From Candidatus Bathyarchaeota archaeon A05DMB-2 (GTDB lineage: Archaea > Thermoproteota > Bathyarchaeia > Bathyarchaeales > Bathycorpusculaceae), in assembly GCA_018475625.1 (NCBI GenBank), contig JAAKEZ010000001.1, forward strand, positions 62,001 to 126,000: DNA of 64,000 nt, in the 5' to 3' direction. The notes beneath the pieces were generated by a model. The model worked only from the letters and a program-made list of their open reading frames with translations. It searched no databases and was not told where the DNA came from. Shown in pieces: positions 21,860 to 51,746 of the stretch. Position numbers and translations under genes: made by a program. The first letter of the stretch is position 1, and the number at the start of each line of letters is the position of its first letter.

Positions 21860-22978
21860 ATGAAAATTCTAAAGAAACTTGACCTAAAGCCTTGCGTTCA
21901 CGGCGGCGAGGTTTGGGAGATTTCAAAGAAGACAGGTCTCAGAAGAGAAGACATAATAGATTTCAGTTCAAGCGTCAACCCACTGGGTCCTTCCCAGAAA
22001 GCGCTGGAAGCAATAAAGGACAGTCTATCTCAGATACCGGTTTATCCTGACTCGAATTCTACGCTTTTGCGGAAGGCAATCGCCAGTCGCTATGAAGGCG
22101 TTACAGAGGATAACGTGGTTGTGGGCAATGGCTCCACTGAACTCATCTACCTGTTCGCCGAGGCGTTTTTGGAAGATGGCGACGTTGCGGTTGTGCCTGC
22201 GCCTACATTCGGCGAGTACGAGCGTGCGGTTAGGAGAATGGGAAAGGCGGTTAATCACGTATATCTGAATGAGGATTTTCATGTTGAAGTGGACGCTTTT
22301 CTGCATGAGATGGCCGGCGCGAAGGTTCTGTTTTTCTGCAACCCAAACAACCCGGCAAGCCTTCTAACACCAAAAGACGATTTAATTGCGATAGTTGAAA
22401 GAGCGCTGGAGCAAGGCGTTCTGGTTTTCTTAGACGAGGATTTCCTCGAATTCGTTGAAGGAGAAAAACACTTGTCCCTGATTGGCAAAATAGCGGAGTA
22501 CCCTAATCTGTTTGTTTTGAGGTCGTTCACGAAGATTTACGGGTTAACTGGGCTCAGAGTTGGCTACGGAATTGCCTCAAAAGAGATAATCCAAACGTTA
22601 ACGAACGCCAAAACCCCGTGGAATGTCAACTGCTTAGCACAGGTCGCAGCAATCGCAGCCTTGGACGATGAAGAACATTTAGAGAAAACACGCGAACTCG
22701 TTAGAAATGAAAAAGCATTTTTGATGGATGGTCTCCGGAGAATTGCAGCTTTCAAGGTGTATCCTGCGGACGCTAACTTTATTTTCATGGATGTCAGGAA
22801 GTCGGGGTTCACCGCGGCTCAGCTTAAGTCGAAACTGCTAAATTTTGGCTTGCTGATACGGGACTGCAGTTCATTCCATGGATTGGACGAGTACTATGTG
22901 CGAGTGGCGGTTAAAACAAGGCGGGAAAACGAGCGGCTACTGGAAGCTTTCAAAAAGACAGTGGAAGACTATGCTTAG
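21860..22978 (+). CDS. cobD: L-threonine-O-3-phosphate decarboxylase (CobD, HisC-like)
   Basis: 372 residues, PLP-dependent class I/II aminotransferase fold. CobD makes (R)-1-aminopropan-2-ol phosphate for the cobalamin lower-axial linker. Supporting features: the early VHGGEVWEISKK (HGG is usual in CobD), FSSSVNPLGPS, the FCNPNNPASLLT block, and the PLP lysine in LRSFTKIYGLTGLRVGYG. HisC is the close alternative, but the following cbiB and the HGG motif favour CobD. Start follows the previous stop directly (TAAATG), so the genes are coupled. Ends with TAG. Confidence 0.86.
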   Translation: MKILKKLDLKPCVHGGEVWEISKKTGLRREDIIDFSSSVNPLGPSQKALEAIKDSLSQIPVYPDSNSTLLRKAIASRYEGVTEDNVVVGNGSTELIYLFAEAFLEDGDVAVVPAPTFGEYERAVRRMGKAVNHVYLNEDFHVEVDAFLHEMAGAKVLFFCNPNNPASLLTPKDDLIAIVERALEQGVLVFLDEDFLEFVEGEKHLSLIGKIAEYPNLFVLRSFTKIYGLTGLRVGYGIASKEIIQTLTNAKTPWNVNCLAQVAAIAALDDEEHLEKTRELVRNEKAFLMDGLRRIAAFKVYPADANFIFMDVRKSGFTAAQLKSKLLNFGLLIRDCSSFHGLDEYYVRVAVKTRRENERLLEAFKKTVEDYA

Positions 22979-23032: not shown

Positions 23033-24001
23033 ATGGTCCTCATAAATATCTTGTTTCTCATGGATTCCCTGCTGATTCTACTTTTGGCCTTCGTTATTGA
23101 CTTGATTTTCGGCGAGTTTCCAGATCGCGTCCACCCTACAGTGTGGATGGGCAATGTCATCGCTTATCTTAAACCCAAAACCAGAAGCATCAACCCATTA
23201 ACTGAGAAGAGGAATGGTGTCTTCCTTTGCGTAGGTGTCATCACGCTTTTCACGGTTCCCGCATTCTTCCTACTGTGGGCGATTCGGCTAATTCCGGTTT
23301 GGGGCTGGCTGCTTTACGTTGTCGCATCCGCCGTGCTACTGAAGACCACAATAGCCATCAAATGCATGAAGCATTATACAGCTCCGATAGCTAAAGCACT
23401 TAAAAATGGAGATGTTGACGAGGCAAGGCGCTGGCTACATTTCATCGTCAGGCGTGACCCAGCAACCCTCGACGAGCGTCACATAATATCCGCGGCAGTC
23501 GAGTCCATAGCAGAAAGCACCACCGACGGCGTAACATCCCCGCTATTCTTCTTTGCCCTGTTCGGCGTTCCAGGCGCCTTCGCCTTCAGGGTAATCAACA
23601 CTCTGGACTCGATGGTAGGTTACAGGGACACTGAAAACGTGAACATCGGCTGGTTCTCGGCTAAAATGGACACTATAGCCAACTATGCTCCAGCAAGGCT
23701 AACCGCGTTTTTGATGGTTGTTTCGGCGATGCTGATGGGTGCGGATTGGAGAAATTCCCTGCGTATCCTGCAGAGAGACAAGAACAAAACCGCCAGCCTC
23801 AACGCTGGATGGACGATTTCAGCCATGGCTGGAGCGTTGAACACGCAGCTTGAGAAGCAGGGATATTACGCTTTAGGCGACGGTGAAGACATCTCACCCG
23901 AAGATGTTGGAAAAGCTTGGAGAATAATGCTGTTAACCGCCGTCTTATTCAGCGTGGCGGTGGTGGCGCCGGTTTTAGCGTTGAAAGCGCTGTTGCTCTG
24001 A
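23033..24001 (+). CDS. cbiB: Adenosylcobinamide-phosphate synthase, membrane protein (CbiB/CobD family)
   Basis: 322 residues with four to five membrane helices. CbiB joins aminopropanol phosphate to adenosylcobyric acid. Signatures: DLIFGEFPDRVHPTVWMGNVI near the N-terminus, ARRWLHFIVRRDPATLDE, AVESIAESTTDGVTSPLFFFALFG and INTLDSMVGYRDTENVNIGWFSAKMD. With CobD it forms the aminopropanol branch. GGAGG lies just one base before the ATG at 23033, so translation may start a few codons downstream (TTG at 23051 or ATG at 23060). Spacing of 55 nt from cobD fits an operon. Confidence 0.93.
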   Translation: MVLINILFLMDSLLILLLAFVIDLIFGEFPDRVHPTVWMGNVIAYLKPKTRSINPLTEKRNGVFLCVGVITLFTVPAFFLLWAIRLIPVWGWLLYVVASAVLLKTTIAIKCMKHYTAPIAKALKNGDVDEARRWLHFIVRRDPATLDERHIISAAVESIAESTTDGVTSPLFFFALFGVPGAFAFRVINTLDSMVGYRDTENVNIGWFSAKMDTIANYAPARLTAFLMVVSAMLMGADWRNSLRILQRDKNKTASLNAGWTISAMAGALNTQLEKQGYYALGDGEDISPEDVGKAWRIMLLTAVLFSVAVVAPVLALKALLL

Positions 24002-34666: not shown

Positions 34667-35647
34667 ATGGTCATAGAAATTTTAGGTGAAGCACTAAAAC
34701 TAATGGTGCTTGCGGGGCTAACGATTGCGGGAATACTGGTTATTCTTATATGGAAGAAAGGTCTCGCCACGAGAGTAACTTATCTGCGATTCGTTATTCA
34801 AGCAGCAGCTTTGGCCACGTTCTTCTACATATTCACGTACCCCATATGGCTCCTCATCATGCTAATCGTCATCTTAGCCATGTCCATTGTTTTCGGACGG
34901 TTTTTCTGCGGCTGGCTCTGTCCATTCGGTTTATACATGGACTTGATAACGGTTGCGCGGAAGGCTCTCAAAATACGGCATAGAGACCTTCCCGACAGGC
35001 TGAACAAGTTCCTGCATAATCTCAGGTACGTGTTGCTGCTCGTGTTTCTGCTCCTGCCCGCTGTCCTGCTTCTGATGGATCCGCTTCCATCGGTGCAGTT
35101 GGGGATTGTTCTGGCAGAAGTTTTGGGCGGTCCCTTCAAACCCATGAACATCCTGCTTGGTCCAATAATTCCGTTGATTGTGCCGTGGGCTGGACCGCTT
35201 GTCATCGGTGATGTGAATTTCAGTTATCCCTATGTTCAGGATATAATCGGCTACACGAACGGAATTTATGCCACAATCTTCCCATTAATTTTCGTTGTGT
35301 TAACGGTTGTAGGCTCATTTGCGATAAGGCGCGTTTGGTGCCGGTTCTGCCCGACTGGGGCGTCGCTTGCAGTTGTGAACAGGTTCAAAGGTTTTAAGTG
35401 GGCGCCCGCGCTGCACTTGGAGAAGGACGAGGAAAAATGCACCAAGTGTGGAATATGCAAAAGAGTCTGCTCCGTGCAGGTCACTGACGTTTATGAGCAG
35501 AAGGGAGGAAAGATAGATACTTCAATGTGCATGCTGTGTCTCCGATGCGTGGAGATGTGTCCGTACGAAGGATGCCTAAAATTGAAGATAGGTGGAAAAA
35601 CCATTTTCAAATCCCGAAACTGGTTGAAGCCATCAGATAGTGATTGA
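34667..35647 (+). CDS. NapH/CcoG-like polytopic ferredoxin-type membrane protein
   Basis: 326 residues with about five membrane helices. Two cytoplasmic CxxxCP motifs, FFCGWLCPFG and RVWCRFCPTG, are the NapH/NosR-type signature. A C-terminal ferredoxin domain has CTKCGICKRVC and MCLRCVEMCPYEGC. Such proteins accept electrons from the membrane and pass them to a soluble partner. Here the stop overlaps the next frame, and the downstream genes are a dehydratase-like enzyme, its activases and a ferredoxin, so it probably feeds them with low-potential electrons. Confidence 0.86.
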   Translation: MVIEILGEALKLMVLAGLTIAGILVILIWKKGLATRVTYLRFVIQAAALATFFYIFTYPIWLLIMLIVILAMSIVFGRFFCGWLCPFGLYMDLITVARKALKIRHRDLPDRLNKFLHNLRYVLLLVFLLLPAVLLLMDPLPSVQLGIVLAEVLGGPFKPMNILLGPIIPLIVPWAGPLVIGDVNFSYPYVQDIIGYTNGIYATIFPLIFVVLTVVGSFAIRRVWCRFCPTGASLAVVNRFKGFKWAPALHLEKDEEKCTKCGICKRVCSVQVTDVYEQKGGKIDTSMCMLCLRCVEMCPYEGCLKLKIGGKTIFKSRNWLKPSDSD

Positions 35648-35658
35648 GGAATCTAAAA

Positions 35659-36984
35659 ATGATAAGCCAACAGAAAAAGTACATGATTGAAATCTCTCAG
35701 AAAGAAATCGAAGAGCTTAGAAACTCGGTTAAAGCCACTTCACGGAAAGTGATGGCGGAAAACATCGCGCGCATGAAAAAGACATCAAAGAATCGACCTA
35801 AAGCTATGGAGTATTTTGATGAGGTCGCCGACCTTTTTGGAAAACGCGAAAAAGAAATTCAAGCGGCGAAAGAAAGCGGCAAGAAAGTCATCGGTTACAT
35901 GTGCTTGTTTGCGCCGACAGAGATGATTCTGGCTGCTGACGCCATACCTGTCCGCGTTAACTCAGGCTGGTATGACACGTCGAAACTCGGAGACCGCGTT
36001 GTGCCTGTTGAAGTTTGTCCAGTTATTCGGTCAACCATAGGTGCGAAGATGATTGGGTTGTCGCCCTACTTAGAGTTAAGCGATGCGTTGATTAGCGTGT
36101 TGACTTGCGACGGCATGACGAAGCTGGGCGAAATCCTGAGCGATTATAAACCTGTTTGGGCGATGCCTATTCCGAGGGTTAAGGATTTGCCGCAGTCTCT
36201 GCGGTTCTGGAGAGAGGGACTACTGACTGTGAAGGGGCAGATTGAGGCGTTGACGGGCAACAAGATAACTAGGAAGAAGTTGAAATCAGCGATAGAGAAA
36301 ACGCAGAAGGCAACGAAGGCTTTTCGTCGACTACAGGAGTTGCGTAAAGGCAACCCAGTCATCATGGGAAGAGACGCTATGCTGGTTAATCAAACTTACA
36401 TGTGGGACGACATAACGCGTTGGACAGAGAAAACCGAGGCGCTGTGCGACGAGCTTGAAGAAAAGGTTCGCCGAAAAGAGTGGTCGTGCTCCTTGGATGC
36501 GCCGCGGGTGATGGTTACGGGCACACCCATGATTTGGCCTGACAACTGGAAGCTACCCACGCTGGTTGAGGAGGGCACACCTCAGGGCGTCCTTGTTGCA
36601 GATGAGCTCTGTTCCAGCGAGAGGCTGCTTTATGACCCTGTGGGTGTGGATGAGTGGACGATGGATGACATGCTCAACGCCATCGGCGAACGATACTTGA
36701 TGGCGTCTACATGCCCGTGCTTCACGTCCAAAGACGGGAACGCAGACCGTATCAACTGGATGCTGAACAAGATTAAGGAGTGGAATGTTCAAGGCGTAAT
36801 TTACTATGTGGTTCGCGGCTGCATGTCCTACGCCATGGAATACACACGTATCAAGAAGGTTTTGGACGGTATAAACATACCCGTCTACTACTTGGATACT
36901 GAGTACACGCGGGAGGATGTTGGCCAGATGAAGACGAGAGTTGAAGCGTTCTTGGAGATGCTGACCGCGCGGATTGACATTTAG
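35659..36984 (+). CDS. 2-hydroxyacyl-CoA dehydratase / benzoyl-CoA reductase family subunit (possible double-cubane protein)
   Basis: 441 residues, HgdB/BcrB/BcrC fold family. Cysteines stand at the family positions: Cys82 in GYMCLFAPTEM, Cys120 in VEVCPVIRS, Cys150 in LTCDGMTKL, Cys352 and Cys354 in STCPCFTSKD, Cys388 in VRGCMSYAME, six in all. Family enzymes carry [4Fe-4S] or double-cubane [8Fe-9S] clusters and need ATP-driven activases. Only one large subunit is encoded, unlike the two of classic dehydratases, which recalls homodimeric double-cubane cluster proteins. ATG 35659 with GAGG 9 nt before; a TTG at 35644 is upstream. Ends with TAG. Confidence 0.82.
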   Translation: MISQQKKYMIEISQKEIEELRNSVKATSRKVMAENIARMKKTSKNRPKAMEYFDEVADLFGKREKEIQAAKESGKKVIGYMCLFAPTEMILAADAIPVRVNSGWYDTSKLGDRVVPVEVCPVIRSTIGAKMIGLSPYLELSDALISVLTCDGMTKLGEILSDYKPVWAMPIPRVKDLPQSLRFWREGLLTVKGQIEALTGNKITRKKLKSAIEKTQKATKAFRRLQELRKGNPVIMGRDAMLVNQTYMWDDITRWTEKTEALCDELEEKVRRKEWSCSLDAPRVMVTGTPMIWPDNWKLPTLVEEGTPQGVLVADELCSSERLLYDPVGVDEWTMDDMLNAIGERYLMASTCPCFTSKDGNADRINWMLNKIKEWNVQGVIYYVVRGCMSYAMEYTRIKKVLDGINIPVYYLDTEYTREDVGQMKTRVEAFLEMLTARIDI

Positions 36985-36996
36985 AGGCGATACAGA

Positions 36997-37782
36997 GTGA
37001 TTACTGCTGGAGTAGATTTGGGAACGCAAAGCGTGAAAGTAATAATACTGAAAGATGGCGCTGTAATAGGACGGGGCAAGGCGTTTTCGGGGTTTGACCC
37101 CGCAAAAGCCGCAGAACAAGCCATGGACGAAGCATTAACGAGGGCGAACCTGTCGTTGGGTGATTTGAGCCACGTTACTGCCACTGGCGCAAGCATGGCG
37201 TTGGCGCCTAAAGCCGACAGCACCGTAAGCATGATGGGCGCCGACGCAAAGGCAGGGGTTTTCCTGTTTCCCAAAGCCCGAACAATCATCGACGTCGGCG
37301 CGGAAGAAGCCAGAGCAGTGAGGTGCGACGACCGGGGTGTCATGGTGGAGTTTGTGGTTAACGAACGGTGCGCTGCAGGTGCCGGTGCTTTTATCGAAGC
37401 CATGGCGAGGGCGTTGGAGGTGAAACTGGAGGAGATGGGTCCACTTTCGCTTAAGGCGGAACGCGCAAGCCCAATAAACGCGAGCTGCGTCATATTCGGC
37501 GAGTCCGACGTAGTCACGTTGATTCATCGGCAGGAGTCGAAGCCTGAGATTGCACGGGCGGTTTTTGACGCTATGGCTGACCGAATATCATCGATGGTGC
37601 ATCGATTGGGCGTGAACCCAGATGTGGTTCTACTCGGCGGCGTGGCTAAGGATGCGGGTTTTGTCGCATCGTTAAAAAGGAAGCTTGACATTGATGTACT
37701 CATACCGGAGTTTCCCGAGTTTGCTGGCGCGTTGGGCGCGGCGCTTATCGCTGCCAGCAAAGCTGAGAGGTCGCAGAAATGA
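36997..37782 (+). CDS. BcrA/BadF-type ATPase activase, first copy
   Basis: 261 residues, ASKHA ATPase fold. Phosphate-1 motif GVDLGTQSVKVIIL; the cluster-binding cysteines lie in ERCAAGAGAFIEAMA and NASCVIFGESDVV; the adenosine motif is DVVLLGGVAKDAG. As a dimer the protein would hold one [4Fe-4S] cluster and push electrons to the dehydratase-like subunit upon ATP hydrolysis. It has CAAGAG rather than CAAGTG, a small departure. GTG start 12 nt after the previous stop; overlaps the next gene by 4 nt. Confidence 0.87.
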   Translation: MITAGVDLGTQSVKVIILKDGAVIGRGKAFSGFDPAKAAEQAMDEALTRANLSLGDLSHVTATGASMALAPKADSTVSMMGADAKAGVFLFPKARTIIDVGAEEARAVRCDDRGVMVEFVVNERCAAGAGAFIEAMARALEVKLEEMGPLSLKAERASPINASCVIFGESDVVTLIHRQESKPEIARAVFDAMADRISSMVHRLGVNPDVVLLGGVAKDAGFVASLKRKLDIDVLIPEFPEFAGALGAALIAASKAERSQK

Positions 37783-38687
37783 GTGATGTGGCGCAGAAAG
37801 AAGATGTGGACTACTGGCGTTGGCAGGAGTATCATAGGGTCTTTTCCAATAAAAAATGGAAAAGCAAAGATATCATCACCGCAGGCGTGGATGTCGGCTC
37901 AGTTGGCTCCAAAGCAGCCATAATGGTAGACGGCGAAGTCTACTCCTGGGGAGTAATGCGGACAGGCTCCAACAGCCCGGAAAGCGCCAAGAAAGCATTG
38001 GACTGGGCTATGGAAGGCACCGGGCTCAGGCTGAACGACCTCAAATACATCGTCGGCACCGGCTACGGACGAGTTAACGTGCCAATGGCGAACAAAGCTA
38101 TCACAGAGATTGCCTGCCACGCGAAAGGCGCAAACTACATCTGGGGTTCAAGCGTCCGAACCGTGCTTGACGTGGGCGGACAAGATATCAAAGCGATTCG
38201 CTGCGACGAAACCGGGAGGGTCACATCGTTCCTAATGAATGATAAATGCGCAGCGGGCACCGGCAGAGGCATGGAAGTGTTCGCCGACCTACTCAAAATT
38301 CCCATCGAAGACATAGGAAAAGTCTCTTTGAGCGTTGAAGAGGAACCGCCGCCTGTAAGCTGCACCTGTGTGGCGTTTGCAAAAACCGAGGCTGTCGGAC
38401 TGCTGCGCAAGGGATGGTCGAAAGAAAAGGTGTTGGCGGCGTACACGCGCGCGATGGCGGTCAGGATGAGCAACCTTATCAGCAGAGTAGGTTTGGAACG
38501 CGAGTTTGTCATCACAGGCGGCCAATCCAAGAACATTGGCATAGTCACGAGAATAGAAAATATCCTCGGCGTAAAATGTTTACCAACGCCGAACTGGCGG
38601 GAGAATGGGTTAGACCCCATGGTGGCTGGGGCCATCGGCGCCGCACTCTTCGCCAAAGCCTTGTACGAGAAAGAGCAGAAACAATAG
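37779..38687 (+). CDS. BcrD/HgdC-type ATPase activase, second copy
   Basis: 302 residues, homologous to the previous gene but with a 30-residue N-terminal addition (YWRWQEYHRVF). Motifs: GVDVGSVGSKAAIMVDG, LDVGGQDIKAIRCDE, DKCAAGTGRGMEVFADLL, PVSCTCVAFAKTEAVG, and EFVITGGQSKN. Cys in CAAGTG and in SCTCVAF supply cluster ligands. Two activase subunits in tandem are typical of heteromeric BcrAD-type activators, while dehydratases with homodimeric activases need only one. Coupled by ATGA overlap with the first copy. Confidence 0.88.
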   Translation: MSDVAQKEDVDYWRWQEYHRVFSNKKWKSKDIITAGVDVGSVGSKAAIMVDGEVYSWGVMRTGSNSPESAKKALDWAMEGTGLRLNDLKYIVGTGYGRVNVPMANKAITEIACHAKGANYIWGSSVRTVLDVGGQDIKAIRCDETGRVTSFLMNDKCAAGTGRGMEVFADLLKIPIEDIGKVSLSVEEEPPPVSCTCVAFAKTEAVGLLRKGWSKEKVLAAYTRAMAVRMSNLISRVGLEREFVITGGQSKNIGIVTRIENILGVKCLPTPNWRENGLDPMVAGAIGAALFAKALYEKEQKQ

Positions 38688-43740: not shown

Positions 43741-46700
43741 ATGCAGAATCGTGATTTAATGTCTGATGACTACGCTTCGTTTCAGAAGAACTATGTTCCA
43801 CTAATGACGCGCCGCATTGAAGATTGGAAATCAAGACTCATAGACCTTTCTCGCCGAAACAACTTGTTGTATTTTAAGCCCAGCAAAAGAGGAAGCCTTT
43901 TCATATCCCGCCCAAACGCGGACACAATTTTCAACAGGCTAGTCGTAAGAAGACGTCGCTTGAGGTTTTGGTACCCCCCAGAGGAACAGAAGAACCTTGA
44001 TGTGCGATTGCAACCTGACTTGAACGGTTCAGCTGTTGTTGACAAGGATGGTTCCGCGTCAAACAGGCTGGTTTGTGAGGGAGTCAGCCGAGTTGACCTT
44101 GAAAGGACGCTTAAGAACCTCAACAGGCGGTCGCTCTCAGACTACAGAGAACGAGGCGTACGCATCCTTCAAGCTCACTTTGGAATGTTAGTTTGGAAGG
44201 ACAGGGAAACATCCGAGGAAGTCCGCTCGCCACTTGTTCTCGTGCCAATTGAGTTAACTCGTAAGTCGTTCCGTGAACCCTTTGCTATATCGGTTCCACC
44301 AGTGGAAGAGGAGGCAGTTCTTAATCCTGCTTTACAGGTGCGGCTAAAGAGCGACTTCAAAATCGACCTTCCGTTACTGCCCGAAGATTGGGAAGCTAAA
44401 ACCCTAAGCGAATACTTTGATGAAGTGAGGCGAGCCGTCGAAGAACTCGGATGGACTTTAGAAACCACGGTTGGCATAGGACTTTTCTCATTCCACAAAC
44501 TGGTCATCTACAACGACCTCGACGCCAACGCCAATTTAATCAAGCAGCATCCCATAATCCGTGCAATAGCCGGAATCAAGGAAGAAGAGCAACTCGTCAG
44601 GGAATCGTTGCCGGAAGAGAAGGACGTAGATAGGATAGAGCCACCTCAAAAAACGTTCCAAGTCTTGGACGCGGACAGCAGCCAGAGAATTTCCATCGAA
44701 TATGCTTTGCGTGGACAGAGCTTTGTGATGCAAGGTCCACCAGGCACGGGAAAAAGCCAAACAATCGCCAACATCATAGCCGAATGCATAGCTCAAGGAA
44801 AATCTGTGCTCTTCGTCAGCGACAAAATGGCCGCTCTTGAAGTGGTTTACAAAAGACTTCGCGATGTTGGGCTGGCCCATTTCTGTTTAGAACTTCACAG
44901 TAGCAAAGCCAACAAGCAAGAAGTTGTCGCAGAGCTTAAACGCTGTCTAGACGAACAGCTTGTTCCACGAAAGCTACCGTCAGAGCACGACTTCGAAAAA
45001 CTCACAGCGCTCAGAGACAATTTAAGCAATTACGTGGTGTCGCTCCATCAGAAACGGCCCAACCTGCAAAAGAGTGCATTTGAGGTACTGGGGCAAATTT
45101 CCAGCCTTGAAAATGTTCCCTTCGTTCCAGTTGAATTGCCAAACCCTGGAAGCCTCACTCCTCAACGAATGACCGAGTTAGAGGGTCTCATGTCTCAGTT
45201 GAAGAATGTTTGGAAAGTGGCAGAAGAAAAAGACTTTCCTTGGCGGGGCTACCGAGGCGACAAGTACAATTTAGAAATCCGTTCAGAGTTAACGTTGACG
45301 CTGGATTATCTAACTTCGACCGTTGACCAGCTCATAGCCGAATCAGCCAAATTCGCCAACCAACTCGGTTTAGAAGCCCCACCAACATTCGAGAGCGTGA
45401 AGTGGCTGATTGAAATCAGCAAGCAGTTGATGGAAAGCCCTCGGCCAGAAGTCAGTTGGGTGACGCAGCCCAGTCTTGGCCAGCTCATGCTCGAAGCTGA
45501 GGAGTATAAGGCAACATCTGAATGGTGCAAAGCAACGCGTAGTCGTCTGCTGGAACGCTACGACCCAACGTTTTTCACCTTGGCACTAAGCGAATCTGAA
45601 GAGATTGAAGATGCGCTCTCGGCAGCAAACACTTTGATTCTCAACTCTAACATAAAGGAGAGCGAGCTTCTTCAAAAAAGAGAAAAACTCTGGAGTTTCA
45701 TCAGCGATGCCCAGATTTTCACGAAAGAGTGGGATGAGAACGCAAAGAAGCTTGCCCAAACACTGGACTTAACCGTTGAAAATCTGACACTTGACAGCGT
45801 GCGACTGCTGGCGCGCATTGCGCTTTTCTGTTTTTCAGACGACAAGCCGGAACCGCGATGGTTCAACCCAGATTATCTGCAGCAGGTAAAAGAAATTGTG
45901 GTGAAATCAAAGAAGGTTTACCAAGAACATAACGCACTGCGGATGAAACTGGAGCAAAAATACGACGCAGATAAATTTGTGCAGCTAGACCTAGACGAAC
46001 TCTTAAGGCGCTTCAGGGACAAGTACCAAAGTAGCCTCAAGCTGCTTCGTCCCAGCTTCTACCGCGACCAGAGGGAAATAGCTAACCTCACTCATGAAGG
46101 CAGAGTCCCAGATACTATCCTGCAGGATTTAGCGGACGCACGCAGACTGAAGGCTTTGAAGACCGAGATTCAAGTTTCAGCCGAGCAGGTCCGCGAGGTG
46201 CTTGGCCACTTCTATCGGGGATACGATACAGATTTCAGCCGCGTAGAACAAGCTATCGAGTTCACTTCGGAAATACTCAAGCGGTCGGGCACAGAACCAA
46301 TAACCAAGTATTTCTCGCAGGGTTCAGAGCCGCCATTCGAAGTCAAGCAAATCGGTAGCCAACTGCAACAATCCTTAGCCAAGTGGGACCAGCATGTCAA
46401 CGAACTGGGGTCCTTGCTGCCTGCGGATTGCCTGCCTAACTCGGGCTTGTCAATTCACGAGACGCCGCTGATTCTGCTTAGGGATTGGGCAAACGCTGTT
46501 GAAAGGCAACTTCGTGTGCTTTGTGAGATAACATCTGAAGCCTTGAAGGCCTGCAAGGGCGAAGAGCCTGAGAACTACAAGCAACTGATTGCCGATTTGA
46601 AAGACGCTGAAAGGGTTAGGAAGACAGAGGCGGCGATTCTTGAGGAGAAGCCGCTGCTGCAAAAGAAGTTTGGGCGACGCTTCTCAGACCTTGACACGCG

Positions 46701-49392
46701 CTGGGAAGAAATATTAGCCGTTCTTGACTGGACCAGTAAATTCCAAACGTTGTTCGGCTCATCCAACGTACCTGCCGCTCTCGCAGAAATAGTCGCAGGT
46801 GGAGCTGACTCTGCGCCGTCGGACAGCGAACTTGTCAGAACCTTGGATGCTGCGCTGGGGTCTTTGGCGGCTTTTGAGTCTCGTTTTGAAACCCCGCCGA
46901 CGTATCAGGGCAAGAAGCTTCTAGAAATGAGCCTCAAAGCCCTCCGCGACAGAATGGTGTGTCTTCGGGAAAAAGTTGACGACCTGCAGGTTTGGATAGA
47001 CTTCAAAGTCCTCAAAAACCAGTTTTCACTGAGAGGGTTAGAAGCGTTTTTTGAACGCATCACCACGAATCCGCCGCCAGCGGCTGACCTTGTGGATATA
47101 TTCCGTAAAGGTGCATACCAAGAATGGATTAACAACCTGTACAATGAAGACCCGAACCTGGGCAAGTTTCGAAGAGAAAATCATGAACACCTTATTGAAG
47201 AGTTCAAGAAACTTGACCAGGAACTGATTAGCTTGGCGCCGAACCGCGTGATAGAGGCGGCGAACGCCAGAAAACCCCAAGACATACTAATCCAAGCAAA
47301 CAATTCGGAAGTGAACACGCTGCTAAGAGAGGCGGCGAAAAAAAGGCGGTTAATGCCAATTCGCGTGCTACTGCAGAAAATCCCAAACCTCCTTTTCCGC
47401 ATTAAGCCATGCCTGCTCATGAGTCCAATATCCGTGAGCCAGTTTCTCCCGCCTAACTTGATGCAGTTCGACCTAATCCTCTTCGACGAGGCATCGCAGA
47501 TTGTTCCTGAAGACGCCATCGGACCGATTTACCGTGGAAAAACCATAGTCGTCGCTGGAGACAATAAGCAGCTGCCTCCCACGAGTTTCTTCCAGAAATC
47601 GATGATTGAGGAAATCGATTGGGACGAAATCAGCGACGAAGACGCAGAGGTTTTCGACAGCATACTGGAAGAGTGTATGGGAATCGGGTTGCCCGTGAAG
47701 ACCCTCCGCTGGCACTACCGAAGCAAACACGAGGAACTTATCGCATTCTCCAACAACCGCTTCTACAGCGGCACACTGATTACTTTCCCCTCGCCCATGT
47801 CGAAAACCGACGCCCTAGGCGTGAAAATGGTCTACGTGCCAGACGGCGTCTACGACAGAGGCGGCAAAAGAAACAACATCCGCGAGGCAGAAGTCGTGGC
47901 AGACCTAGTTTTCGAACATTTTAGGCTGTACCCAAAGAAAACTCTTGGAGTGGTGACGTTCAGCATAGCTCAGATGGAGGCTGTGGAAGACGCAATCGAC
48001 CGGCGCCGCAGATTGCACCCCGAGTTTGAGCATTTTTTCAAGGAGGACAGGTTAGGCGGTTTCTTCGTCAAGAACCTGGAGAATGTTCAGGGCGACGAGC
48101 GGGATGTGATGATAATCAGCGTGGGGTATGGCTACGACCATCTAGGCCAGATTACCATGAATTTTGGTCCTGTGAACAAGCCTGGCGGCGAGCGTCGGTT
48201 GAATGTGGTGATTACAAGAGCAAGGGAGAAGACGGTGCTTGTCACCTCGATTAAAGCCGAAGACATCAAGGTGGACGCAACCAGCACAGAAGGCGTGATG
48301 ATTCTGCATGACTATCTTGAATATGCTGAGGGGGGTCCTGAAGCATTAAAGCTATCTCATGTAAGGGCAGGCAAGCTTGAGTCCCCCTTCGAAGAGGACG
48401 TGGCGATGGTGATTCAACGTGCAGGCTACAAGGTAATCCCCAAAGTAGGATGGAGCGGCTGCCCAATCGACATCGGAGTGACTGACCCGCAACTTCCAGG
48501 ATGCTACCTCTTGGGCGTCGAATTCGACGGCTCAACATACCAATCCATTAACAGCGCAAGAGACAGAGACCGACTGCGAGAGCAAGTACTTCGGCAACTC
48601 GGATGGAGGATTCACCGCATTTGGGCGCCAGCGTGGGTTGCTAGGCGGGAATCTGAAATTAGACGGTTAACGGAGGCTTTGGAGGCAGCGCACAGGGCTC
48701 AACTGGAAAAGGAAGCGCTAATCGAGGAAACCGTTACTCAGGAGCAGTTAGAGAATTCTTCACAGGAGATGGATGTTCAAAAGGTCGATTTTGCAGGTCG
48801 GGAAAAAATTGGTGTTCCTTACCGAGTGTATCCGCTTAAGGCAAGGTTCAATCAATTCGACGCAACCGAGTTTCACTCCCCAGAAAATCGGAGAATGCAA
48901 AGCATCCTCTTGGAAGAGCTTGTCAACGTAGAGGGCCCAGTTCACTTCGACTATGCAGTTCAGAGGTTAGCGTCTCTGTGGGGGCTGAAACGGACGGGAC
49001 CGAAAGTCGTCCAAGCTGTGAGAGAAGCGCTTAACACGCTGCTTCAAAACCGAAAGGTGCAGGTTAAAGGCAGCTTTCTCTGGCCTAAAGAACTCAATGA
49101 TGTTCCCGTGCGCGTTCCAGTTCCAGACGTCCCCGAATCAAAGCGGGTGCCGGAGCATATTCCGGCGGAGGAGATTGAGAAAGCCCTGATATTCATCGCC
49201 AAATACGCTTTAGGTATAAGCTCAGAATCGTTGGCAACTGAGACTGCGAGAGTATTCGGGTTTAGCCGCATGGGTGTTAGGGTTAAGGAAAGAATCAACG
49301 AAGTGTACAAGAGACTTCTATGGGAGAGGAAGCTCATCTGCGTTAACGATGTTGTCACCGTGCCTCAGTCAAACGTGCAGAATAATCATTAA
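43741..49392 (+). CDS. Giant DUF4011-SF1 helicase-REase fusion (putative defence protein)
   Basis: 1883 residues. N-terminal DUF4011-type region (RIEDWKSRLIDLSRRNNLLYFKPSKRG). Walker A GPPGTGKSQT near residue 331; long helical insert (about 450-1200); Walker B LILFDEASQIV near 1245, GDNKQLPP near 1270, and later NVVITRARE, the SF1 motif VI. A vsr/MTES_1575-like nuclease module follows near 1550-1660 (PIDIGVTD...LGVEFDG...REQVLRQLGWRIHRIWAP). The end (about 1710-1875) matches DUF3320-like winged repeats. Proteins of this build are found in defence islands. No partner gene is adjacent, so it may act alone. Confidence 0.85.
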   Translation: MQNRDLMSDDYASFQKNYVPLMTRRIEDWKSRLIDLSRRNNLLYFKPSKRGSLFISRPNADTIFNRLVVRRRRLRFWYPPEEQKNLDVRLQPDLNGSAVVDKDGSASNRLVCEGVSRVDLERTLKNLNRRSLSDYRERGVRILQAHFGMLVWKDRETSEEVRSPLVLVPIELTRKSFREPFAISVPPVEEEAVLNPALQVRLKSDFKIDLPLLPEDWEAKTLSEYFDEVRRAVEELGWTLETTVGIGLFSFHKLVIYNDLDANANLIKQHPIIRAIAGIKEEEQLVRESLPEEKDVDRIEPPQKTFQVLDADSSQRISIEYALRGQSFVMQGPPGTGKSQTIANIIAECIAQGKSVLFVSDKMAALEVVYKRLRDVGLAHFCLELHSSKANKQEVVAELKRCLDEQLVPRKLPSEHDFEKLTALRDNLSNYVVSLHQKRPNLQKSAFEVLGQISSLENVPFVPVELPNPGSLTPQRMTELEGLMSQLKNVWKVAEEKDFPWRGYRGDKYNLEIRSELTLTLDYLTSTVDQLIAESAKFANQLGLEAPPTFESVKWLIEISKQLMESPRPEVSWVTQPSLGQLMLEAEEYKATSEWCKATRSRLLERYDPTFFTLALSESEEIEDALSAANTLILNSNIKESELLQKREKLWSFISDAQIFTKEWDENAKKLAQTLDLTVENLTLDSVRLLARIALFCFSDDKPEPRWFNPDYLQQVKEIVVKSKKVYQEHNALRMKLEQKYDADKFVQLDLDELLRRFRDKYQSSLKLLRPSFYRDQREIANLTHEGRVPDTILQDLADARRLKALKTEIQVSAEQVREVLGHFYRGYDTDFSRVEQAIEFTSEILKRSGTEPITKYFSQGSEPPFEVKQIGSQLQQSLAKWDQHVNELGSLLPADCLPNSGLSIHETPLILLRDWANAVERQLRVLCEITSEALKACKGEEPENYKQLIADLKDAERVRKTEAAILEEKPLLQKKFGRRFSDLDTRWEEILAVLDWTSKFQTLFGSSNVPAALAEIVAGGADSAPSDSELVRTLDAALGSLAAFESRFETPPTYQGKKLLEMSLKALRDRMVCLREKVDDLQVWIDFKVLKNQFSLRGLEAFFERITTNPPPAADLVDIFRKGAYQEWINNLYNEDPNLGKFRRENHEHLIEEFKKLDQELISLAPNRVIEAANARKPQDILIQANNSEVNTLLREAAKKRRLMPIRVLLQKIPNLLFRIKPCLLMSPISVSQFLPPNLMQFDLILFDEASQIVPEDAIGPIYRGKTIVVAGDNKQLPPTSFFQKSMIEEIDWDEISDEDAEVFDSILEECMGIGLPVKTLRWHYRSKHEELIAFSNNRFYSGTLITFPSPMSKTDALGVKMVYVPDGVYDRGGKRNNIREAEVVADLVFEHFRLYPKKTLGVVTFSIAQMEAVEDAIDRRRRLHPEFEHFFKEDRLGGFFVKNLENVQGDERDVMIISVGYGYDHLGQITMNFGPVNKPGGERRLNVVITRAREKTVLVTSIKAEDIKVDATSTEGVMILHDYLEYAEGGPEALKLSHVRAGKLESPFEEDVAMVIQRAGYKVIPKVGWSGCPIDIGVTDPQLPGCYLLGVEFDGSTYQSINSARDRDRLREQVLRQLGWRIHRIWAPAWVARRESEIRRLTEALEAAHRAQLEKEALIEETVTQEQLENSSQEMDVQKVDFAGREKIGVPYRVYPLKARFNQFDATEFHSPENRRMQSILLEELVNVEGPVHFDYAVQRLASLWGLKRTGPKVVQAVREALNTLLQNRKVQVKGSFLWPKELNDVPVRVPVPDVPESKRVPEHIPAEEIEKALIFIAKYALGISSESLATETARVFGFSRMGVRVKERINEVYKRLLWERKLICVNDVVTVPQSNVQNNH

Positions 49393-49423: not shown

Positions 49424-50197
49424 TTAGAATAGTGTGCCTATGACGTTAACTGGCTTGTTGACAGTGCGTTTAAGGTCAGCCACCTTAGAATCGGGCAGAC
49501 TTGCGAGAATCACAGTGGCAGGACCTGCTGATTCCGTTACTTTGATTTCATGCTGCTCCGCGAGTTTAAACGTGAGCTTGGAATCATGCGCAAGCGTTTC
49601 GATTTCGTGGATTATTCCTGTGGAGCCGACTGGAATCACCTCATGAATGAACGATAAGTTCTGGAGCTTGGGAATGTCTGTTACATCCGTGATTTTGCTT
49701 TCTTTTTCTGCCGATACCACTTCGTTTCCAACGCATGGAATCCCCAGAGCCACGACGGTGTCGTTTGGCAGGGAAGTTCCGATTCGCAGTGCACTTCGTT
49801 TGCATGTTCCGATGACGGTTACGCCGATTCCTGTCTGTTCCACCTCGAAGTTCTTCTCTGTGCTTCCAGTCACTGCCCATTTCGGGTCTAAACCGGCTTT
49901 TTCCGCCTCAGCTCTTATGCCCCTGATGATTTCGCTACCTGTTGGTTCAGGTTCCACGCTGAGGGTGTCAACAACACAGACGGGTTTTGCGCCCACCGCC
50001 AAGACTTCCATCAGCGCTGCGCGTGCCGTGAATTTGCCGAGAGTGTACCCGTTGACTTTGATTTTGTCCAGCGGTTTTGGTCCTACGCCGCCTGAAGAGT
50101 CGCATCCGACGACCATGATTTCGCTGTTGGCTAATTCAAAAAGGAGGACATCCCGGCGTGTTGCAACGGCAAAAGGAAGAAGCGGTTTCGGGGTCAA
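49424..50197 (-). CDS. PurM-like kinase family (CblS-like, proposed alpha-ribazole kinase)
   Basis: 257 residues, AIR-synthase-related ATP-binding fold. Motifs: VVGCDSSGGVGPKPLDKIKVNGYTLGKFTARAALMEVLAVGAKPVCVV, EPEPTGSEIIRGIRAEAEKAGL, then TGIGVTVIGTC and SAGPATVILASL. In Firmicutes, CblS phosphorylates alpha-ribazole and is encoded beside the ECF-type importer CblT. Here the same pair exists: the membrane gene 50194-50739 overlaps this start by 4 nt. The opening CDSSGG is close to what I recall for CblS; biochemical identity is inferred. Confidence 0.72.
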   Translation of the reverse strand: MTPKPLLPFAVATRRDVLLFELANSEIMVVGCDSSGGVGPKPLDKIKVNGYTLGKFTARAALMEVLAVGAKPVCVVDTLSVEPEPTGSEIIRGIRAEAEKAGLDPKWAVTGSTEKNFEVEQTGIGVTVIGTCKRSALRIGTSLPNDTVVALGIPCVGNEVVSAEKESKITDVTDIPKLQNLSFIHEVIPVGSTGIIHEIETLAHDSKLTFKLAEQHEIKVTESAGPATVILASLPDSKVADLKRTVNKPVNVIGTLF

Positions 50198-50739
50198 ACG
50201 TGAAGCTTCCCTCTAACGCCGACGTAAGCCGATGCCGCCACTGCCATGTTCAAGATGGAACCAACTAGCAGGAACGGCGCAAACCCGATCGCGATAAGCC
50301 ATCCCACGCTGGCGTCCGCATCCAGCAGAGGCGCCATTGGGAAAACCATGAGCGTGTTAATCGCCACGCCGACGATTATGGCTGGTATAAAGCCCCATTG
50401 CCTGTTGACCTTGTTCACGAGTCCTACTGCGGCACCTGCCAATGCCATACCGAAAGCGATCATAATGTGCAGAAAACCGAGTGGGAACCCGCTTACAGAG
50501 GCTGTGGCTAAATGTCCGATTCCGCACACCGCGGCGCCTTCAAGTGGTCCGAAGAACAGCGCTACAAAGAAGCCGGGGCTTGAATCGAATGCCACTGAAC
50601 CTATTGGGCTTGGAATTTTAATTAGTGAGCCGACAGCGCTTAGCGCAGTGAAGATAGCTAGTCTTGCGCCGCGCCAGCTTGCAGATTTGCTCATTATAGC
50701 CCTGTTTATGTTGGTGTTTTTCTGTTCCATGGCTTTCAT
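50194..50739 (-). CDS. ECF transporter S-component-like membrane protein (CblT-like)
   Basis: 181 residues with five to six membrane helices. Conserved opening ARLAIFTALSAVGSLIKIPSPIGSVAFDSSPGFFVALFFGPLEGAAVCGIGHLATASVSGFPLGFLHIMIAFGMALAG is typical of small-molecule-binding S-components. CblT imports alpha-ribazole in Firmicutes. No ECF ATPases or T-component are in the window, so they would have to be shared or solitary function assumed. First gene of a leftward unit with the CblS-like gene, divergent from the RHH-PurM fusion gene. Confidence 0.75.
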   Translation of the reverse strand: MKAMEQKNTNINRAIMSKSASWRGARLAIFTALSAVGSLIKIPSPIGSVAFDSSPGFFVALFFGPLEGAAVCGIGHLATASVSGFPLGFLHIMIAFGMALAGAAVGLVNKVNRQWGFIPAIIVGVAINTLMVFPMAPLLDADASVGWLIAIGFAPFLLVGSILNMAVAASAYVGVRGKLHV

Positions 50740-50788
50740 CCTGTTGACTAAAGCAAAGGTTAAATGATAAAAGCGTTACCATGCGTAT

Positions 50789-50798
50789 TACATATGTA
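50789..50798. promoter_or_regulatory. Perfect palindrome between divergent genes (candidate operator)
   Basis: TACATATGTA, a perfect 10-bp inverted repeat, lies 19 nt before the start of the rightward RHH-PurM gene and 50 nt before the leftward membrane gene. Ribbon-helix-helix proteins commonly bind short palindromes of this type. Confidence 0.5.
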
Positions 50799-50816
50799 GT
50801 GTGTTGTTGAACGGAT

Positions 50817-51746
50817 ATGAAGGTCACAAACGTCAGATTAACTGACAAAATCGTCCAAAGCATAGATAAACTCGCCAGAAAACACGACCTCACACGTTCA
50901 GAAGTCATCCGCCAAGCACTCATCGTCTACCTGCATTTAGTGGAGAACGTTGGCACCATGCTGAGACCCGTAGCATTCCAGGTTAAGCCCGCCCAAATAA
51001 TCTACACTCGAAGAGGAGACGTAACGATTCTTGGCGTTCCCACGGGACATTCTATAGTGGTTGGCTCAACCTCGTCAGGCGCGGTAGGTCCGAAACCGAT
51101 GGATGAAGTAAAAGTGGACGGGCGCGTTCTGGGCAAATTCATGGCTCGAGTCGCGCTAATGGATGTTGCAGCCACAGGCGCGTTTCCTATCCTCCTGTCT
51201 GTCACGCTGGGTGTAGAGAAAGAGCCGACTGGCAAGCAGATTCTGGAGGGCATAAGAGGCGAAGCCAGAGTCGTCGGACTTGACCCCAACCAAGTTTTGA
51301 TGGAGAACACTGAAGACAACTTTGAGACCGTTCAGACAGGCGCAGGATTGACGGTGGTCGGCTTCGTTAACACGGATGAGCTTAGACTGGGAAAAACAAG
51401 CCCGGGCGATTTGATAGTTGCTGTCGGCAAACCAAAGGTTGGAGATGAGGTGCTGCCTGCTGAAGCACGGGGCGAGATTGCCGACCTCAGAAACGTGATT
51501 TCTTTATCCCAAAAGAAGTACGTGCACGACATCGCGCCCGTGGGAACATTAGGAATTGCCTATGAAGCCCGCATGATGGCGCACGCCGTGGGCAAGCAGC
51601 TAAAACTGGAGGAGGTGCAGGGTTTAGATCTTAACAAGTCCGCTGGACCCGCAACAGTCATCCTCGCCACCATCAACCGTGAAAAGCTTGACGAGTTAAC
51701 CATGCTCCTCAACAAACCAGTCACAGTAATTGGAGAAATACTCTGA
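50817..51746 (+). CDS. Ribbon-helix-helix / PurM-like (CblS-like) fusion protein
   Basis: 309 residues. Residues 1-45 are a CopG/MetJ-type RHH DNA-binding domain (NVRLTDKIVQSIDKLARKHDLTRSEVIRQALIVYL). From about 60 the protein is a PurM-like domain paralogous to 49424-50197: SIVVGSTSSGAVGPKPMDEVKVDGRVLGKFMARVALMDV, EKEPTGKQILEGIRGEARVVGL, TGAGLTVVGFV, SAGPATVILATI. The Cys-Asp of the active paralogue is Gly-Ser here (VVGSTSSG), which may mean a catalytically altered sensor domain. Likely a self-regulator that senses an alpha-ribazole-type ligand. Confidence 0.78.
   Translation: MKVTNVRLTDKIVQSIDKLARKHDLTRSEVIRQALIVYLHLVENVGTMLRPVAFQVKPAQIIYTRRGDVTILGVPTGHSIVVGSTSSGAVGPKPMDEVKVDGRVLGKFMARVALMDVAATGAFPILLSVTLGVEKEPTGKQILEGIRGEARVVGLDPNQVLMENTEDNFETVQTGAGLTVVGFVNTDELRLGKTSPGDLIVAVGKPKVGDEVLPAEARGEIADLRNVISLSQKKYVHDIAPVGTLGIAYEARMMAHAVGKQLKLEEVQGLDLNKSAGPATVILATINREKLDELTMLLNKPVTVIGEIL

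Follow-up and report, generated by a model that had tools for sequence, protein, structure and literature searches.

The locus lies in a window of 64,000 nt, the whole stretch of DNA analysed here, from the genome of Candidatus Bathyarchaeota archaeon A05DMB-2. It comprises a cblS-like and a cblT-like gene on one strand and, facing away from them, a gene whose product joins a ribbon-helix-helix (RHH) domain to a PurM-like domain and which is termed the RHH-PurM fusion below (Table 1). The genes of the ECF transporter S-component and the PurM-like protein overlap by 4 nt (50194-50197, from the ORF coordinates), as an earlier note on this DNA had observed. CobD and CbiB, which the same note had placed elsewhere in the window, are both recovered there; their genes are located approximately 27 kb from the RHH/cblTS module and carry no operator match.

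Table 1 Features of the locus and associated features (window positions unless a locus is named)
Feature	Position	Strand	Description
cblS-like gene	49424..50197	-	TTG start; predicted PurM-superfamily kinase, 257 aa; Pfam AIRS 36.9 bits, over cut-off
cblT-like gene	50194..50739	-	ECF transporter S-component, 181 aa; Pfam ECF_trnsprt 48.8 bits, over cut-off
Putative regulator gene (RHH-PurM fusion)	50817..51746	+	RHH domain (aa 4-39), helical linker, degenerate CblS domain (aa ~62-309)
Candidate operator	50784..50803		CGTATTAC-ATAT-GTAGTGTG, 8-4-8 inverted repeat; core TACATATGTA at 50789-50798
TATA-like element	50766..50774		GCTTTTATC towards cblT, GATAAAAGC towards regulator gene
CobD	21860-22978		NCBIfam, over cut-off
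CbiB	23033-24001		NCBIfam, over cut-off
Soluble ~180-aa protein, copies in related genomes	L132 6680-7225; L133 6566-7123; L134 5317-5889; L170 5127-5687; L172 6679-7218; L174 4765-5421

The neighbor of the module (window 43741-49392) encodes an 1883-aa DUF4011/AAA helicase with an MTES_1575 restriction-nuclease-like domain and is possibly a defence gene. At 35644-38687, two BadF/BcrA-type activase genes come after a gene for a 2-hydroxyglutaryl-CoA dehydratase/benzoyl-CoA-reductase-type D component; the second activase gene was assigned by sequence resemblance alone.

Judged by its sequence and genomic context, the ECF S-component and PurM-like pair is an archaeal CblT/CblS. Roughly twelve Bacillota loci have a cobalamin riboswitch (RF00174) directly upstream of the pair. 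Methanomethylicota and one bathyarchaeote have cobY, cobS, cbiZ, cbiB, cobD or apgM next to it, and in Methanomethylicota its relatives are found beside cobY-cobS-cbiZ-cbiB-cobD; loci with such cobamide neighbors are L060, L061, L063 and L057. In a maximum-likelihood tree, the archaeal, Bacillota, Listeria and Lactiplantibacillus CblS sequences share one clade (branch support 100/99) that is separate from ThiL, HypE, SelD and other PurM-like proteins. The PurM-like proteins thus group with CblS, and membership in the ThiL, SelD or HypE families was ruled out. The genes after the Listeria homolog read as cobU, cobS and cobC (sequence and order only), and the homolog on the Lactiplantibacillus plasmid pMF1298-5 is the CblS of the CblT-CblS-CobS-CobC operon described for that plasmid (PMC6722938). 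The product at L085 reads as a CobU-CblS fusion. A suspected ECF-PurM fusion at L104 was dropped, its N-terminus not being a membrane protein.

The distribution of CobT is in line with this assignment. CobT is absent from seven of the eight archaeal genomes that carry the pair without the fusion and present in 21 of the 22 genomes with the fusion, which supports a replacement of cobT by cblT/cblS in the pair-only archaea. These archaea parallel Lactobacillus coryniformis, where cblTS is present and cobT absent (PMC6167548). Read by eye, the L. coryniformis cblS primer from that publication seems to code for the family motif SVGVTVI, a reading that carries no weight in the assignment. The window's genome itself carries two CobT genes besides the cblTS pair. 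Each lies in a btuF-like/ABC-transporter/cobT locus, and one of these two loci also holds cobS and a cobY-like gene. With cobS, the cobY-like gene, cobD, cbiB and ECF T components all encoded, alpha-ribazole phosphate should be usable in this organism, and its CbiQ-type T components provide an ECF module for the CblT-like S-component. The CblT-like protein would transport alpha-ribazole or a related precursor, and the product of the cblS-like gene is predicted to be an alpha-ribazole kinase.

As no significant PDB relative was obtained by sequence search, a fold search was used instead. The AlphaFold model of the stand-alone CblS-like protein (pLDDT 94.4) retrieved the SelD/ThiL/HypE/PurM fold with Foldseek. 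The protein retains R15, D16, C32, D33, D44 and E64 in the alignment and thereby the CD motif of the PurM-fold metal/nucleotide loop, which is invariant in 35 enzymes. The bacterial relatives were gathered with a CDS-motif pattern and motif conservation among those rows partly reflects this selection; the archaeal, Listeria and Lactiplantibacillus enzymes, gathered by other routes, also have CD.

The N-terminal RHH domain that had been proposed for the divergent PurM paralog is borne out by an RHH_1 match of 32.2 bits (cut-off 20.5), alongside an AIRS match of 26.3 bits. Structure prediction agrees, in that the PurM-fold domain is modelled with confidence and the N-terminus is RHH-like (helices H10-22 and H27-53), and the fold search again returned SelD, ThiL, HypE and PurM. 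The PurM-like domains of enzyme and fusion differ at the catalytic loop, which reads GCDSSGG in the enzyme and GSTSSG in the fusion, the catalytic-loop Asp being replaced by Thr. The earlier note had seen this difference correctly, but its label 'P-loop-like' was wrong: in the PurM/ThiL fold this motif forms the metal/nucleotide loop. R15, C32, D33 and E64 are invariant in the 35 enzymes, including the Listeria homolog, and replaced in all 18 fusions that were compared (R15 by G, C32 by S, D33 by T or S, E64 by D); D33 aligns with an invariant Asp of ThiL. About 16 positions are invariant across the enzymes. Besides the four replaced ones, S192 varies in the fusions, while D16, D44, G39, E198 and the other structural positions are retained almost throughout. 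Mean column identity is higher among the fusions than among the enzymes (74% vs 49%), partly because the fusions are closer relatives. These data support a CblS paralog that has lost catalytic-loop residues and turned regulator. Very probably, the RHH-PurM protein is an enzyme-derived transcription factor for the uptake of cobamide lower-ligand precursors.

The upstream regions of the fusion genes share a 20-bp operator, YRYAYTAC-N4-GTARTRYR. Its core is the perfect 10-nt palindrome that the earlier note had located in the shared promoter. The palindrome is there and unique within the window, but alone it is not significant, because the window holds 52 perfect 10-nt palindromes. The operator without mismatch occurs once in the entire genome, namely in the promoter shared by the fusion gene and cblT. 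It is kept before the fusion orthologs and before targets in related genomes; degenerate own-promoter sites are found at loci L044, L045 and L049 of fusion genomes. At cblT, the operator is located upstream of the TATA-like element, and the ATG follows this element at a distance of 27 nt, so the cblT mRNA is probably leaderless. The same order of operator, 9-bp spacer and CTTTTAT-like box is found in 16 target promoters from 15 genomes, and the ecf2 promoter of G018 has a weaker copy of it.

For pattern searches, the operator and its distance to the TATA-like box were combined into a composite site, TACNNNNGTA-N14-GCTTTTAT. Eleven sites without mismatch were found in the 22 fusion genomes, all of them before cblT, ecf2, cobT, a NicO-type Ni/Co transporter gene or the fusion, and none in the 30 relatives that lack the fusion. 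Sites with one mismatch in G000 (C78), G001 and G286 (C4:367899, C10) were discounted on inspection, being probably chance matches. In the window's genome, neither apgM-cobD-cbiB nor the two btuF-like/ABC/cobT loci have a good operator site. The proposal that the regulator controls the whole B12 cluster therefore finds no support in this genome, where the sole perfect site is the shared fusion/cblT promoter, while the underlying idea of an enzyme paralog turned regulator is supported at the sequence level by the RHH fusion, the residue loss and the conserved operator.

The fusion is found in about 20 genomes of the same family and order as the window's bathyarchaeote, G001 being the nearest relative. 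A divergent fusion from elsewhere in the phylum (G163, RHH domain 23.8 bits) also faces an ECF gene. At this locus (L066 1813-3286), the half-sites of the palindrome differ (GTAACAC-ATTT-GTGTCAC). The ECF-PurM pair is more widespread than the fusion and is present on its own in Bacillota, Methanomethylicota and other Bathyarchaeia. Many fusion genomes have lost it from a locus that otherwise retains its flanking genes (L040 compared with L043). The separate kinase is gone in half of the fusion genomes, so the ligand of the regulator need not be the kinase substrate.

Targets beyond those of the earlier note, namely a second transporter gene (ecf2), cobT and a NicO gene, were identified in related genomes. 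ecf2 is present in 12 of the 22 fusion genomes and in none of the 30 without it (Fisher p = 3e-6); many of the compared genomes are draft assemblies from one family, and the counts and statistics are not phylogenetically independent. An operator site precedes all 12 ecf2 genes or the cobT-ecf2 operons containing them. cblT and ecf2 are nearly mutually exclusive (eight genomes with cblT only, eleven with ecf2 only, one with both and two, G145 and G363, with neither; the weak ECF match of G249 is left out of this tally). The ecf2 product has no Pfam match and is called an ECF-like transporter from its hydropathy and a weak similarity to another ECF-S protein. In several genomes ecf2 is followed, probably in the same operon, by a gene for a soluble protein of about 180 aa (Table 1), the L132 copy of which has no Pfam or NCBIfam match. 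The co-occurrence of B12 genes that had been suggested as a check is seen both in the cobamide genes adjoining the pair in relatives and in G277, where the fusion is divergent from cobT-ecf2-cobD-cbiB, under the operator.

Some further neighbors were noted. In G402, a NicO-type nickel/cobalt transporter with a His-rich loop (L046 6645-7397) is divergent from the fusion gene and has the operator in common with it. In G232, two B12-binding radical-SAM-like genes (L055 9950-12853) run divergently from the fusion gene; their best matches are BchE-type models below cut-off. In G145, a perfect operator (L130 5720-5739; G145:C54:10719) precedes alcohol-dehydrogenase-like and anthranilate-phosphoribosyltransferase-like genes as a possible extra target. 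The best extra operator sites of G145 precede unrelated-looking genes, which counts against the proposed model, as do the lack of either transporter in G145 and G363 and the degenerate own-promoter sites.

Family membership, residue loss, operator and regulon were all demonstrated computationally, and we consider it likely that the locus serves the regulated salvage of a cobamide lower-ligand nucleoside, with an RHH sensor made from a duplicated kinase. The CblT-like S-component, with the shared ECF module, would import alpha-ribazole or a related precursor, and the CblS-like kinase would convert alpha-ribazole to alpha-ribazole phosphate for use by CobS in nucleotide-loop assembly. The regulator gene may have arisen when a duplicate of the kinase gene was fused to the RHH DNA-binding domain; its product would have lost the catalytic residues and kept the fold as a ligand sensor. 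It would bind the 20-bp palindrome as a dimer or larger oligomer. The ligand that we expect, with moderate confidence, is alpha-ribazole or its phosphate. In related genomes, the same regulator would control ecf2, sometimes together with cobT, cobD and cbiB.

The direction of control may differ between the two sides of the promoter. The TATA-like element could also serve transcription towards the fusion, which would place the transcript start inside the operator; with the operator overlapping the predicted start of the regulator's own transcript, autorepression is likely. The earlier proposal, in which the regulator simply represses cblTS until the ligand releases it, is plausible but not our preferred reading. 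Autoregulated divergent promoters of this type are often repressed, and the operator adjoins the BRE/TATA region, from where it could hinder TFB or TBP. Its position, however, leaves the TATA-like box and start site of the target uncovered, and a spacing as rigid as the 9 bp in the 16 promoters is seen more typically with activators than with roadblocks. Activation thus fits the targets at least as well, and given that the operator immediately precedes the TATA-like box with a constant spacer, an activator of the transporter operon is slightly favored over a repressor.

A bifunctional protein that acts as regulator and active alpha-ribazole kinase has a precedent in RbkR, a riboflavin kinase and regulator (PMC8305020), and could supply kinase activity in the many fusion genomes without a separate CblS. 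It is nevertheless improbable here, given that the four enzyme-invariant residues are gone in every fusion and that nearly all genomes without a separate CblS have CobT and no need of the kinase. Service to another vitamin (thiamine, folate, riboflavin or pantothenate) is very unlikely, since the weak ECF-S profile matches to riboflavin and folate families, and the CoA operon with its own ECF-S that nine loci place tail-to-tail with the fusion, are outweighed by the riboswitches, synteny, CobT replacement and tree, all of which point to cobamides, as does cobT-cobD-cbiB under the operator in G277; the CoA operon (PPAT, pantoate kinase, ECF-S) is convergent, does not share the operator promoter and was ruled out as a target. 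Equally unlikely is an antitoxin-like or DNA-tethered enzyme with an incidental palindrome: antitoxins commonly have RHH domains (weak NCBIfam matches), but no toxin partner is nearby, and the operator is kept before orthologs and distant targets at fixed spacing, its composite form without mismatch being confined to genomes with the fusion in this comparison.

The salvage module with its enzyme-derived regulator resembles several known systems. As in the CblT/CblS systems of Listeria innocua, Geobacillus and Lactobacillales, an ECF-S protein is paired with a PurM-like kinase of the same protein family in a B12 gene context. The pair described here is archaeal, has no riboswitch and is linked to a regulatory protein derived from the kinase itself. 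The cobalamin riboswitch RF00174 that precedes Bacillota cblTS homologs is an RNA element sensing cobalamin, whereas in the present locus the sensor is probably a protein that responds to the lower-ligand precursor. RbkR likewise joins the kinase domain of an archaeal vitamin pathway to a DNA-binding domain; it keeps its kinase activity and uses an HTH domain, in contrast to the PurM fold, lost catalytic residues and RHH domain of the present regulator. ThiR, the archaeal thiamine regulator, consists of a ThiN-like domain and an HTH domain. It is similar in that an enzyme domain is recast as a ligand sensor for pathway transporters and enzymes, and differs in vitamin, fold, DNA-binding domain and operator. 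Provisionally, RHH and PurM form a new domain pair under a principle related to that of RbkR and ThiR. No archaeal protein regulator of cobamide salvage was found in the literature searched; most subscription journals were outside its scope and the novelty is provisional.

Which forms of B12 are usable by a cell is determined by the lower ligands of cobamides, and alpha-ribazole is among the metabolites that microbes exchange. We moderately favor the view that the fusions form a family of archaeal transcription factors not described before, whose PurM-fold pseudo-kinase senses alpha-ribazole or its phosphate and matches the import of lower-ligand precursors to need. On this view, the family kept its regulatory role as the transporter under its control changed from CblT to the unrelated-looking ecf2 product. 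If true, the pseudo-CblS sensor would be a PurM-superfamily domain acting as a transcriptional ligand sensor, and the operator would offer a ready marker for finding further lower-ligand transporters such as ecf2.
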